Of a DNA stretch of 40,444 bases, positions 2,297-36,873 are shown piece after piece (position 1 is the stretch's first letter; every line of letters begins with the position of its first letter). This DNA is from a bacterium. GTDB lineage: Bacteria > Patescibacteriota > Minisyncoccia > UBA6257 > WO2-44-18. The notes below the pieces were generated by a model, which was given only the letters and a program-made list of their open reading frames with translations, was not told where the DNA came from and made no database searches. The translations under genes and the position numbers were made by a program. The stretch is from the NCBI GenBank assembly GCA_023244815.1, contig JAHFLQ010000003.1, positions 32,875 to 73,318 on the forward strand, given 5' to 3'.

Positions 2297-4222
<1,926 letters not shown>

Positions 4223-4316
4223 TAAACTAAAACTTTCAAACTATGTTTGAAAGCGAGTTGTCGAAATTTATCGCAAGATAAGAAAGGTGTTGGCCGAGGA
4301 ACCTTAAGTTTCGGTC

Positions 4317-4345
4317 AGTTGGGATAACTATAAAGTTTTGGACTC
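4317..4345 (+). other. Pre-16S processing stalk, right arm
   Basis: Pairs with 2192-2220 over 29 bases. The mature 16S 3' end must lie upstream of this arm. No CCTCC occurs between 4221 and this arm, or further on to 4560. Confidence 0.8.
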
Positions 4346-4350
4346 TAAAT

Positions 4351-4510
4351 TCGGTAGGAATATTCTCTCGGCAACCGGGCGTCGGTTTTCTCCTGCGGAA
4401 AACTACGCCCTGTGCCCTCGGAACTTTGCGAATCGTTGTAACATTCTTTTTAACGATTCGTCCAAGCCAAAGTTCCTGCGGGAACTTGCCTCAAAAACAT
4501 TCCTACCGGC
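4351..4510 (+). ncRNA. Structured trailer RNA downstream of 16S (three-way junction)
   Basis: An outer 10-bp perfect stem (CGGTAGGAAT 4352-4361 with ATTCCTACCG 4499-4508) encloses two hairpins. One is GGGCGT/ACGCCC plus GTTTTC/GAAAAC, with an apical TCCTGCG loop (4377-4410). The other is GGAACTTTG/CAAAGTTCC plus CGAATCGTT/AACGATTCG (4420-4476). No T-tract follows, so it is not a simple terminator. It lies just outside the processing stalk and should be on the same transcript as 16S. I do not recognise the family. A 72-codon reading frame crosses it, but the folding explains the sequence better than coding. Confidence 0.6.
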
Positions 4511-4602
4511 TTCTTCGTTGGTTGTTGGTCAGGGTGTTTTTGGTTTGACAAATTAAATTATCGGTGGTAGCATCTCGGCAGGACTTTGAAAGGAGGCGCG
4601 CG

Positions 4603-5213: not shown

Positions 5214-5585
5214 ATGTTCAAAGTATTTTTAGTTGAGGACGATCAGTTTCTTTCTTCCATATTAGTGAACCGGCTGACGAAGGAGGGTTATGAAGTAACG
5301 CTTGCCAAAGACGGTTCGGAGGCGGAGAAAATGTTGATTCAAGAAAAAGCGCGGCCGGATGTGATTTTGCTGGACGTAATTTTGCCTGGCAAAACCGGCT
5401 TTGAGGTTTTGGAAGACATCCGTCAGGTGCCGGAGTTAAAAAAAACTAAAGTGGTCATTACTTCTAATCTTGGACAAGAGCTGGACGTGAAGCGGGGGCA
5501 GGAATTGGGAGCGGAATATGTTGTAAAGGCCCGTACTTCGCTGGACGACATTATTAACAAGGTTAAAGAATTGGCGGGCAAATAA
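5214..5585 (+). CDS. Single-domain response regulator (CheY-like)
   Basis: 123-residue receiver domain with no output domain. The acidic pair is at residues 8-10 (EDD), the phospho-acceptor Asp54 is in LLDVILPG, Thr/Ser lies at 83-84 and the conserved Lys105 is in YVVKA. It presumably accepts phosphate from a histidine kinase encoded elsewhere, as none is in the window. It lies immediately before the pilus cluster. In related bacteria CheY-like proteins beside pil genes modulate pilus motors, so a role in pilus control is plausible but inferred from position. Probably leaderless. Confidence 0.92.
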   Translation: MFKVFLVEDDQFLSSILVNRLTKEGYEVTLAKDGSEAEKMLIQEKARPDVILLDVILPGKTGFEVLEDIRQVPELKKTKVVITSNLGQELDVKRGQELGAEYVVKARTSLDDIINKVKELAGK

Positions 5586-8768: not shown

Positions 8769-8828
8769 ACTGGAAGTTCCAATTTGTATGGATTGGATGG
8801 TAGATCGGTTCTTTTTAGGAGGTTCGCG

Positions 8829-9440
8829 ATGACGGCTATTTTAAAGGCGAGGACGTCCCAGAAGCGCGCCCGGGAGATCATGGGGCGCAACTTCTTCGGC
8901 GTGGAAGAGGCGATCCAGCACTTCGGGTTCAACCCCACGAAGCCGCAGCTCGTCGCCTTGGCCGAGATTCCGCTCACCGAAGCGGAGCTGATCGAGAAGA
9001 AGGACAGCCACATTCTCGTCGCCGTCTTCCCGATTTCGATCCTGGAGATCCGCGGCAAGGTGCAGCGCCAGCTCTTCTACGTGCACGAAAAAGCCTGGTA
9101 CAACAACGAGGCATTCGCGAACGAGAAAGGCGATGCCAGCTGGCAGCTGGTCCAAAAGACTCCGGTGGCCGACTCCACCAGCGATATTGGTAAGGCGCTC
9201 ACGGCTCGCGTGATGGTCTACGCCATCATCGGCCACTACCTAGTCACCGGCGAGCGGCTTATCCAGCGCACCTTTGTCCGAAGCTCGGACATTAGCGCGA
9301 GCGGCGGTTTGGTGCACGTCGGCCCATTCGAATTGAATGGGCCGGTCAATGGGCTGGTCGTCGACAGTCGTGGGGATGACTGCGGCTGTCACTGTGGTGA
9401 CGGATGTCGCGCGGGAGCAGTCGACAGCTGCTGGTTCTAA
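8829..9440 (+). CDS. Orphan protein inserted in the pilus cluster
   Basis: 203 residues; I do not recognise a named family, although similar proteins occur as hypotheticals in Parcubacteria to my recollection. The start is fixed by AGGAGG (8817-8822) six bases upstream of ATG. The N-terminus MTAILKARTSQKRAREIMG is basic. The middle has alternating beta-like segments (ILVAVFPISILEIRG, QRQLFYVHEKAWYN), and the last 30 residues are Gly/Asp/Cys-rich. No signal peptide or membrane segment. Codon use is much more G/C-ending than in pilB and pilC. It has its own promoter and terminator and lies between repeat elements, so it looks like an insert rather than a pilus component. Confidence 0.85.
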   Translation: MTAILKARTSQKRAREIMGRNFFGVEEAIQHFGFNPTKPQLVALAEIPLTEAELIEKKDSHILVAVFPISILEIRGKVQRQLFYVHEKAWYNNEAFANEKGDASWQLVQKTPVADSTSDIGKALTARVMVYAIIGHYLVTGERLIQRTFVRSSDISASGGLVHVGPFELNGPVNGLVVDSRGDDCGCHCGDGCRAGAVDSCWF

Positions 9441-18710: not shown

Positions 18711-18923
18711 ATGGCAGAAGTTAAAAAAAGGGAAGGCGAATCCACCACCTCGTTAATCTACCGGTTTATTAAGCGTGTTCAACAGACTGGAGTTTTGCGT
18801 GAATCCAAAAAGCGCCGGTTTCATAGCCGAACGCAAAATCGTTTGAAGCGCAAACTTTCCGCTCTCCATCGGGAAGTCAAAAAGAAAGAGATGGAGATTG
18901 CCCGCAAGCTTGGTGAGTTGTAA
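18711..18923 (+). CDS. rpsU: 30S ribosomal protein S21
   Basis: 70 residues, highly basic, with the S21 pattern FIKRVQQTGVLRESKKRR near the middle. S21 normally sits by the 3' end of 16S rRNA near the anti-Shine-Dalgarno. Its retention here, beside a 16S that lacks that sequence, is notable. Only two bases separate it from yqeY. Confidence 0.93.
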   Translation: MAEVKKREGESTTSLIYRFIKRVQQTGVLRESKKRRFHSRTQNRLKRKLSALHREVKKKEMEIARKLGEL

Positions 18924-29777: not shown

Positions 29778-30188
29778 CTACTTCTGCGCTTTAATGAGCT
29801 CGGCGCGGAGCTTAGGGCGAGATTGTTTTTCGCCTGGGAACGTCATATTTTCCCGGAGGAAGAGCTCCGCCCACTGCTCCGGTTCCCAGCCCTTTTGGGT
29901 CCAGTGGATCCACAATCCGAAAGCGCAGGGCTGGCCTTGTTTGGGATTCTGGGGGTATGGTTTCCAGCCGGCCTTGTAGTCTGGGTTGATTTTCCCTTCA
30001 AACACAGCCGACCCATTCGTGCCGTAAATCTTCAGCCAATCGCCTTTATCCAGGAAATGAAGCGCGTCGTAACCTTTCTTGCCGTCGATCTCAAAAATCC
30101 AGCAGGTACCCTCGCAGCCCGTCTCAAAAAACCAGCTGATCGTTCCTGTGTGCTTCGCCGTCTTTTTTGTTTCAATGTATCGCGCCAC
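29778..30188 (-). CDS. Orphan aromatic-rich protein
   Basis: 136 residues from GTG 30188, with AAGGAG six bases upstream. No signal peptide or membrane helix. It has an unusually high Trp content (ISWFFETGCEGTCWIFEID, GWKPYPQNP, LWIHWTQKGWEPEQW), one CEGTC pair and many Lys. The beta-rich first half could be a small beta-barrel. I do not recognise a family. Monocistronic, with TTGACC-N17-AATAAT upstream (30245-30217). Confidence 0.8.
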   Translation of the reverse strand: MARYIETKKTAKHTGTISWFFETGCEGTCWIFEIDGKKGYDALHFLDKGDWLKIYGTNGSAVFEGKINPDYKAGWKPYPQNPKQGQPCAFGLWIHWTQKGWEPEQWAELFLRENMTFPGEKQSRPKLRAELIKAQK

Positions 30189-30300: not shown

Positions 30301-30936
30301 CTAGACCTCGACCGTGGCGCGCTGGATGAGGTTGGGCGGGACGATCGCCAGCGCCTGGCCGATCGCCTCGTTGGCCGCCTTGACGAACTCGTCCACCTGT
30401 TCGCCCGGTGCGCGGGTCATACGGAGTGCGCGACTGGGACCCGCCTCGAAGTGCACATGCTTCTTGCAGCGCAGGCCCTCGTGGTGGAAGACGTCGCCGA
30501 CGAGCACGAACTTGCAGTTGTCCACCCACTGGGGGACAAGGGTGGAATCGGGCAGGCATTCCGGCCTCTGCATCTGTCCGAACTTCTCCTTGATTTGGAT
30601 CAGTTCCTTGGCCGCCTCGTTCGCCTTGTCTTGCGTTTCCAGGTAGGCCTTGGCCGAGGCGCAGGGTTGGCCCTGATGCGCCCAGTTGCCCGACTGACGG
30701 ATCAGCGTGCATTCGCCGATCTGGAACTGGACGCTGTAGGTCCAGTGGCTCGTTCTCTTGCAGGAGTTGTCCACGTGACGCCACTCATCTCCCTTCCGGA
30801 AGAACGTGCATCCGTCCACCTTGGCCATCTTGACCTTCGGCCGGTTGTTGGTCGGGTGGCTGAACATCAGCTTCACCCGCATCTTCGGCCTCGCCGGTTT
30901 CGCCGACTCCACTGACGTCGTCGTCTCTTCCGCCAT
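30301..30936 (-). CDS. Orphan Cys/His/Trp-containing protein
   Basis: 211 residues from ATG 30936, six bases after AGGAG. G+C content is far above its neighbours. A Thr/Ser/Pro N-terminal tail (1-20) precedes two similar segments of the form C-T-F/L-I-R...G-x-W-x-H-x-x-x-x-C (near 45-60 and 78-95), and a third C-K-F-V-L-V-G-D-V-F-H-H-E-G-L-R-C near 145-160. These look like repeats with a conserved Cys-x12-18-Cys spacing. No known family named. It could be a zinc or disulphide repeat protein. Divergent from secA. Confidence 0.8.
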   Translation of the reverse strand: MAEETTTSVESAKPARPKMRVKLMFSHPTNNRPKVKMAKVDGCTFFRKGDEWRHVDNSCKRTSHWTYSVQFQIGECTLIRQSGNWAHQGQPCASAKAYLETQDKANEAAKELIQIKEKFGQMQRPECLPDSTLVPQWVDNCKFVLVGDVFHHEGLRCKKHVHFEAGPSRALRMTRAPGEQVDEFVKAANEAIGQALAIVPPNLIQRATVEV

Positions 30937-34788: not shown

Positions 34789-35406
34789 ATGCAAGATATC
34801 ATTAGCAATCCTTGGTTTTGGTACTACACCTTAAGCGCGATACCGCAGGCGCTCGCGGCCATGATCGCGGTGGTGGCGACCTTTGTCGTTTATAAAGTCA
34901 GCCGGGTGAGCGATCGCACCGAGCGGGAGAAGGACGCGATCAAACGGTTTATTCTGGTGCTTCACCCGGAAAAAGAAATCCATGAGATTGAGCGGATGCG
35001 CGGCTGGGACGTTTGGAGCGCGCTCAGCGATGGCGTGGCCAAGCTAAATCCCAAGGAAGCGAATCTTGGCTTTGCCGGATACAAAGAACTGGAAAAACTT
35101 TTCAAAGAGATTGCCAGCTACTGGCAGAGGAGTTTTGAAGTAACCGAAGAGCGGGTTTACGAATTTTTAAACCAAAAGGCGGAGGTGCTCCATAATTTGG
35201 TGTTGGTAAGAAAAACCTCCTTGCGCCATCTGGTTAATTCCCTAATTACGGCGTCGGTGCCAAGCTGCCTTTCATTTTTGGTTTTGCCGCACATCTATCT
35301 TTTTGGCAATGAGTGGGCCAATTTGGTCGTTACCATTCTGGCCATTCTTACTTGCGTGAGTTTCATTTACACCGCTTACGCTGTTTGGAAAATAGCAAAG
35401 ACTTAA
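34789..35406 (+). CDS. Membrane protein of unknown function
   Basis: 205 residues from ATG 34789; an upstream in-frame start lies within the Nudix gene. One N-terminal membrane helix (about 17-38) is followed by a charged cytoplasmic domain (40-145) with helices and a VWSALSDG motif, then two C-terminal membrane helices (about 150-172 and 178-200). No family recognised. The start is supported by its leaderless promoter. Confidence 0.75.
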   Translation: MQDIISNPWFWYYTLSAIPQALAAMIAVVATFVVYKVSRVSDRTEREKDAIKRFILVLHPEKEIHEIERMRGWDVWSALSDGVAKLNPKEANLGFAGYKELEKLFKEIASYWQRSFEVTEERVYEFLNQKAEVLHNLVLVRKTSLRHLVNSLITASVPSCLSFLVLPHIYLFGNEWANLVVTILAILTCVSFIYTAYAVWKIAKT

Positions 35407-36602: not shown

Positions 36603-36873
36603 GAGCCATATCCCAATACTAACTCCCGCCGCGTTGTTGGTCAAAATGTTCCGATTCGCAAGGAGCGGACAGTTGAGGTGTAGACTCTACTCCCAACTGT
36701 CCGTGACACAGCGAGCGGACATTTTGATCACAACCCAAAGGGATGAGGCTATTTTATTTCATAGCGTTGTTGCTCGGAGTGAGTAGTGGGCTTCCACAAC
36801 TCACTCCTCGACGCCTAGCTCTGAAAATAAAATAGCCGGCATCGCGGCTGAGATTAGTATTGGGATATGGCTC
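36603..36873. repeat. 270-bp terminal-inverted-repeat element between the two glycan genes
   Basis: 20-bp perfect terminal inverted repeats (GAGCCATATCCCAATACTAA at 36603-36622 and its complement at 36854-36873). Nested pairs inside: TCAAAATGT-CCG with CGGACATTTTGA, CGGACAGTTG with CAACTGTCCG, CTATTTTATTT with AAATAAAATAG, and GAGTGAG with CTCACTC. No ORF. It touches the start of one gene and the -10 box of the other. Confidence 0.85.

Follow-up and report, generated by a model that had tools for sequence, protein, structure and literature searches.

Loss of the anti-Shine-Dalgarno sequence from the 16S rRNA of a Parcubacteria-type bacterium and its relatives

Introduction

How does a bacterium choose its translation starts if its 16S rRNA cannot pair with Shine-Dalgarno (SD) motifs? 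The question is raised by a 40,444-nt stretch of DNA (contig JAHFLQ010000003.1, positions 32,875 to 73,318; GTDB family WO2-44-18, order UBA6257, class Minisyncoccia, phylum Patescibacteriota), hereafter the window, in which an earlier note had read a 16S rRNA gene without the anti-SD sequence. The window belongs to a metagenome-assembled genome (MAG) of 598 kb in 15 contigs, estimated to be 96% complete (G000). Our gene set comprises 450 genes over 523 readable kb of G000 (the remaining ~75 kb was masked and thus lies outside the gene and motif counts), and was obtained with a simple codon-score caller blind to SD motifs, the gene starts being our own calls. SD motifs were scored as AGGAG or GGAGG at -16 to -4 from the start, with the expectation given by shuffling. 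The 16S region was retrieved from 69 genomes of the order, 60 of which had a readable helix 45 (h45) and tail.

Results and Discussion

The 3' end of the 16S rRNA gene

The features of the gene, all on the + strand, are as follows.

2298 to 4228, +: 16S rRNA gene (RF00177, 1294 bits), the sole copy in G000; 3' end placed by the drop in tail conservation
3674 to 4100, +: insertion of 427 nt, devoid of long ORFs, at E. coli 16S position ~1400, with borders set from G005, G006 and G007, which lack it
4192 to 4215, +: helix 45, intact, with a GGAA loop (direct reading)
4216 to 4220, +: GAUCA linker, same as in other bacteria (direct reading)
4221 to 4228, +: replacement tail UUUAAACU where CCUCCUUA is expected; first 14 nt free of CTCC in 60/60 genomes of the order, and positions 1-8 conserved above later ones
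2192 to 2222, +: 5' strand of the 16S processing stalk, approximate (duplex prediction)
4318 to 4346, +: 3' strand of the 16S processing stalk, approximate (duplex prediction)

Read directly, the 3' end of the gene runs GTAACAAGG-CACGGGTAGC-GGAA-GCTGCTCGTG-GATCA-TTTAAACTAAAA, in which CACGGGTAGC and GCTGCTCGTG form h45 as a perfect 10-bp hairpin. The earlier description, an intact h45 followed by GGATCA and then by non-standard bases, is thus borne out. The same holds for the claim that AGGAGG has no pairing partner in the mature tail, as the duplex energy with AAGGAGGUG falls from -10.8 kcal/mol for CCUCCUUA to -0.6 kcal/mol for UUUAAACU. The processing stalk, said to close at 4317, was placed about right, and was only moderately significant as a whole against plain shuffles (-77.1 versus a mean of -61.9, sd 6.3). 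CCTCC, reported to be missing from 4221-4560, is absent from the entire 3 kb 3' of 4220 in the window, and likewise within 3 kb after h45 in G002, G003 and G007 over the sequence available.

Across the order, the information content of the tail is 0.6-1.9 bits at positions 1-8 and 0.2-0.5 bits at positions 9-14. This fall after position 8 suggests that the mature 16S rRNA ends ~8 nt past GAUCA, as in E. coli. Both h45 and the length of the tail appear to have been retained, with CCUCCUUA exchanged for the A/U-rich and moderately conserved UUUAAACU/AUUAAACU. At the opposite end of the gene (2298-2330), most of the order carries GAGGATTTGATCCTGGTCCAGGATGAACG instead of GAGAGTTTGATCCTGGCTCAGGATGAACG, and the standard 27F primer may therefore miss the order. 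Pairing of the tail with the 16S 5' end was considered and rejected, because the 5' end differs across most of the clade.

The insertion upstream of h45 was overlooked in the earlier note. It matches the group II model RF01998 weakly (E 0.026, below the cut-off), and position 1400 (16IS9) is a concentration point for group-II-like insertions in 16S genes of the CPR (PMC11270868); judged from its sequence and site, the insertion is probably a degenerate group-II-like rRNA intron. RF00177 puts the end of the 16S rRNA at 3725, on a CTCCTCC inside the insertion. We regard this as an alignment error, owing to which automatic annotation would yield a spurious anti-SD sequence.

Introns are frequent in CPR 16S genes, and with an insertion present here, an intron at the 3' end concealing a downstream exon with CCTCC, or else an assembly error, might be invoked to explain the tail. 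Either is almost inconceivable, as (i) the same kind of tail is found in independent MAGs of many families, (ii) G006 and G007, which belong to the same family and lack the insertion, end in TTTAAACT and TTTACATT, respectively, neither of which contains the anti-SD sequence, and (iii) no CCTCC exon was found within 3 kb in the four genomes above.

We detected one 16S and one 23S rRNA gene in G000, a single copy that is not absolute in a 96% complete MAG, and thus no normal second copy of the kind that the earlier note had proposed to look for. rRNA operons are often missing from MAGs, and a normal 16S gene could have been lost in binning. One other class member, G282, does have two 16S 3' ends (L245 and L246): a large contig carries TATCCAATT, and a 4-kb contig carries CCTCCTTTC, with CCTCC; nevertheless, h45 differs on the latter, so that this second 16S gene is probably contamination of the MAG. 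Every well-assembled genome of the family (G000, G002, G004-G007) yielded a single 16S match, as did genomes of the order assembled into one contig, G038 among them, and we therefore consider a missed normal gene very unlikely. Taken as a whole, the anti-SD sequence is confirmed to be truly lost from the 16S rRNA of this Parcubacteria-type bacterium.

Distribution of the altered tail

None of the 60 readable tails of the order contains CTCC in its first 14 nt. A scan of named genomes for the tail pattern [AT]TTAAA, which is biased through the pattern and serves for names only, returned 59 contigs. The specific names among them are mostly Harrisonbacteria, Liptonbacteria, Colwellbacteria, Wolfebacteria and Jorgensenbacteria, the remainder being labelled Parcubacteria, Paceibacterota, Patescibacteria or unnamed bacteria. 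Members of the phylum elsewhere retain CCUCCUUUCU; at the phylum level, all of the first 30 loci listed carry CCTCCTTTCTA (reading GGATCACCTCCTTTCTA).

Within the class, CCTCC is retained in families f43, f185, f201, f204, f212 and others, whereas changed tails were found in f177 (TCTCC), f32 (CTTCT), f42 (CTACA) and f195 and f222 (TTTCTTTTTAGG-like), and tails unrelated to it in f28, f33, f188 and f198. Judged from these tails, loss or erosion of the anti-SD sequence is an order-wide rule and is also frequent in many other families of the class, whose tail states look like repeated or progressive erosion. The view in the earlier note that such a loss is rare does not hold in this group, in which it is not confined to a single reduced genome.

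The GTPase Era binds both GAUCA and CCUCC (PMC10582724). In all 71 genomes of the order searched, Era fell below the cut-off. In a sample of the phylum, 51 of the 116 genomes passed it, but by match length only six have a true Era, the others having two-GTPase-domain, Der-like proteins. Loss of Era in most CPR, and of Der together with Era, has already been published (PMC12641178, PMC10582724). We rejected Era loss as the specific cause of tail loss: most of the phylum has no Era, and as some of these lineages have kept CCUCC, its loss is at most permissive. The constraint on the tail may have been relaxed by the loss of Era, which alone does not predict loss of the anti-SD sequence.

Translation starts without SD motifs

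Three genes in the window are relevant to initiation.

18711 to 18923, +: gene for ribosomal protein bS21, a 30S neighbour of the 3' tail (PF01165, 33.4 bits)
5214 to 5585, +: predicted leaderless gene with TATAAT a few bases 5' of ATG (promoter position; genome-wide peak)
34789 to 35406, +: predicted leaderless gene with TATAAT near ATG (promoter position)

Upstream of the 450 genes of G000, TATAAT forms a sharp peak at -13/-12 (26 matches), where the looser TANNWT has 86 matches against 8.3 per position, an excess corresponding to ~15% of genes. The equivalent excess is 10% in G002 and 16% in G078. A -10 box 12-13 nt upstream of AUG puts the transcript start at or beside the AUG, and from this promoter position we infer that many G000 genes are leaderless. 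A is enriched at -14 to -5 upstream of starts in G000, and the genome has genes for IF3, bS21 and an S1-like protein. In E. coli, ribosomes with an altered anti-SD sequence still choose the correct starts, helped by A-rich sequences (PMC7043885).

The conservation of tail positions 1-8 throughout the order could also mean that the new tail is itself a new anti-SD sequence for a new, AGUUUAAU-like mRNA motif. We find this extremely unlikely, as the tail complements AGTTT, GTTTA and TTTAA were not enriched at -19 to -4 upstream of G000 starts, and the pairing would be worth only ~-4 kcal/mol.

The explanation that we prefer, and consider very likely, is that the anti-SD sequence was truly lost and replaced by an A/U-rich tail, which would pair neither with SD motifs nor with any enriched upstream motif, and that translation of most mRNAs begins without pairing to the rRNA. 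Many of these mRNAs would be leaderless, with the -10 box 12-13 nt before the AUG, while the others may rely on A-rich unstructured upstream regions, the AUG itself, the S1-like protein and coupling with the preceding gene. As for its history, the loss of Era, which grips GAUCACCUCC, and a low use of SD motifs, seen even in an anti-SD-bearing class member, may both have loosened the constraint that held the tail. SD motifs are kept by a minority of genes, which are leadered and mostly accessory, and this explanation does not account for their use. The earlier note had proposed that initiation rests on leaderless starts, S1/S21-type contacts or unstructured 5' ends. The abundance of predicted leaderless starts agrees with this proposal, but it did not foresee the leadered class of genes with well-spaced SD motifs described below.

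SD motifs retained in the family

AGGAG or GGAGG at canonical spacing precedes 46 of the 450 genes in G000 (8.0 in shuffled sequence) and 28 of 184 genes in 200 kb of G002 (3.2 shuffled). The Harrisonbacteria genome G078 has 5 such genes among 173 (1.0 shuffled), and G038 has none. SD motifs are thus neither absent nor at chance level in G000 and G002. In the family these motifs peak sharply, and as strongly as those of a control that bears the anti-SD sequence, and the family uses SD motifs more than G631, an anti-SD-bearing member of the class. These 46 well-spaced and ortholog-conserved motifs are not explained by an SD-blind ribosome and count against our preferred explanation.

The genes with SD motifs differ from the others in several respects. 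In G000, 42 of the 46 lie >40 nt from the upstream gene and so have their own transcription unit. They are GC-richer (0.53 versus 0.48; 0.50 versus 0.46) and their orthologs are scarcer among relatives (Fisher P 0.07 to 6e-4). A boxA-like element, G[TAC][TA]CTTT, is found in 24% of SD-gene leaders against 2% of others when pooled, and in 13/46 SD genes against 6/404 others in G000. SD status is shared across reciprocal best hits between G000 and G002 (Fisher P 5.9e-4) and between G002 and G004 (P 4.5e-5), with P 0.17 for G000-G004; the identity of SD-positive pairs is mostly low (22-63% versus medians of 52-63%). As SD status is shared between orthologs above expectation, the motif is either selected or moving with genes within the family. 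Examples in the window are as follows.

535 to 1163, +: lipoprotein-like gene (546-1163) with SD CGGAGG at 535-540; family-specific, with an SD-like motif in homologs
8817 to 9440, +: orphan gene (8829-9440) with AGGAGG at 8817-8822 after boxA-like GTTCTTTTT
29778 to 30188, - strand: orphan gene with boxA-like AGTTCTTTTT and AAGGAG ahead of GTG
30301 to 30936, - strand: orphan gene with AAAGGAGATGGCA ahead of ATG

One possibility is that the SD minority is a floating pool of genes acquired from SD-using donors, or circulating within the family, that have kept donor-type leaders (promoter, boxA-like element and SD), the SD being idle or marginally useful. We give this about an even chance. The higher GC content, the scarcity of orthologs, the separate transcription units and the low identity of SD-positive pairs are all in its favour. 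So is the presence, among the SD genes, of beta-oxidation genes odd for the phylum: genes for thiolase, 3-hydroxyacyl-CoA dehydrogenase/enoyl-CoA hydratase and acyl-CoA dehydrogenase, each preceded by an SD, lie on contig C12 (L083, 9745-15265), and, being unusual in so reduced a genome, were probably acquired. On the other hand, an idle motif accords poorly with a peak as sharp and strong as that of the control, with an SD use above that of G631, and with the lipoprotein-like gene listed above. Homologs of this gene, which lies beside the 16S gene, occur in 7 of the 8 genomes of the family, plus one other genome; 7 of the 10 copies keep AAGGA, AGGAG or GGAGG before the start at only 27-47% protein identity, and AGTTCTTT is retained in four of the leaders. 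Contamination as the source of SD genes was rejected, as they occur on nearly all contigs and also on the 400-kb 16S contig of G002.

The lipoprotein-like gene is one of two paralogs without a Pfam match at 546-1914 of the window; among the 61 genomes searched, these were found only in this family and in G022, and they lie near the 16S gene in several genera.

Alternatively, the SD-like signals of the family might function without a 16S anti-SD sequence, the reader being the S1/bS21 surface, NusB-S10 at the boxA-like leader, or an unrecognised CCUCC RNA. We consider this possibility rather unlikely, and are slightly more doubtful still about the corresponding claim that the family leaders (promoter, boxA-like box, AGGAGG and start codon) are working, selected signals whose GGAGG is read other than by 16S pairing. 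The conservation of SD status across genera, the enrichment of the boxA-like element in SD-gene leaders, and the presence of bS21, the S1-like protein and IF3 would fit such a reader. Nevertheless, no preference of S1 for GGAGG is known, and co-inheritance of acquired genes could yield the same statistics. The RNAs that we searched offered no alternative partner either: among 16S rRNAs of the family, nothing recurs but the universal CTCCTACGGGAGG and the decoy in the insertion, with no shared alternative CCUCC, and among 70 intergenic candidates for a trans RNA with CCUCC, the conserved ones were mostly tRNA-like stretches, plus a palindromic repeat. A single match to GATCACCTCCTTT elsewhere in G000 (C3:10823), apparently within coding sequence, was taken as chance.

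The 16S leader itself carries a boxA-like GACTTTGAAAA at 2113-2125, similar to the G[TAC][TA]CTTT box of SD-gene leaders. This likeness hints at Nus-factor antitermination on SD mRNAs.

The palindromic repeat (~270 nt; window 36630-36771, - strand; L310 1501-1773; L316 1501-1773) is family-specific among the genomes searched, with matches in G000, G001, G002, G004, G005 and G007. Its predicted fold is worth -140 kcal/mol (z -11), and no Rfam match was found. The outer 20-bp arms of several copies are AGCCACCTCCTTTCACATAA and TTATGTGAAAGGAGGTGGCT, such that an SD right before the start codon pairs with a perfect anti-SD sequence in cis. The repeat may represent a mobile palindromic element, or else a leader that masks the SD.

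Comparison with known systems

Mycobacteria and Caulobacter have ribosomes that keep the anti-SD sequence, unlike the one described here. The two resemble G000 in being rich in leaderless genes, with the AUG of many mRNAs lying at the 5' end or close to it (PMC4633059, PMC4117421), a feature predicted here from the position of the -10 box. Flavobacterium-type ribosomes (PMC6847099) share SD-independent initiation and A-rich upstream regions, but their CCUCC is present and unused, whereas it is absent here. As in the 128 taxa without the anti-SD sequence in PMC6107228 (Bacteroidetes, Mycoplasma, Carsonella and others), no new SD motif compensates for the loss. Nevertheless, no Patescibacteria are named in the main text of that study, and since its anti-SD-less organisms generally lack SD motifs as well, the family of G000 departs from the reported pattern.

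The closest precedent is category iv of PMC10783764, CCUCC-less and SD-scarce, which comprises Candidatus Wolfebacteria, Campbellbacteria, Absconditabacteria, Carsonella, Hodgkinia and others, with one genome each of Wolfebacteria and Campbellbacteria. G000 resembles these in its tail without CCUCC and its reduced genome, and Wolfebacteria belong to the same clade by MAG names, so that the bare fact of CCUCC loss is already known for the clade. On the other hand, category iv consists of single genomes with 2-7% SD, whereas here the loss spans the order and comes with a conserved replacement tail, and the family of G000 retains 10-15% well-spaced, ortholog-conserved SD motifs. Pairing of an altered tail with the leaders, as in category iii (SD-abundant), was not found at the duplex energy of UUUAAACU given above. 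In the open-access journal literature that was searched, we found no report of a loss throughout the order, of the replacement tail or of a class of genes retaining the SD. The loss of CCUCC is thus known in outline, its scale apparently not.

Implications

In this clade, start callers that assume SD motifs err, as do 16S ends based on Rfam. More broadly, loss of the anti-SD sequence, so far a matter of individual genomes and scattered endosymbionts, now extends to a large environmental clade, and the intermediate tails in the class make the order of events traceable, from low SD use through Era loss and tail erosion to the new tail. A family with conserved SD boxes and without the anti-SD sequence is a natural test of whether GGAGG has any role beyond 16S pairing.
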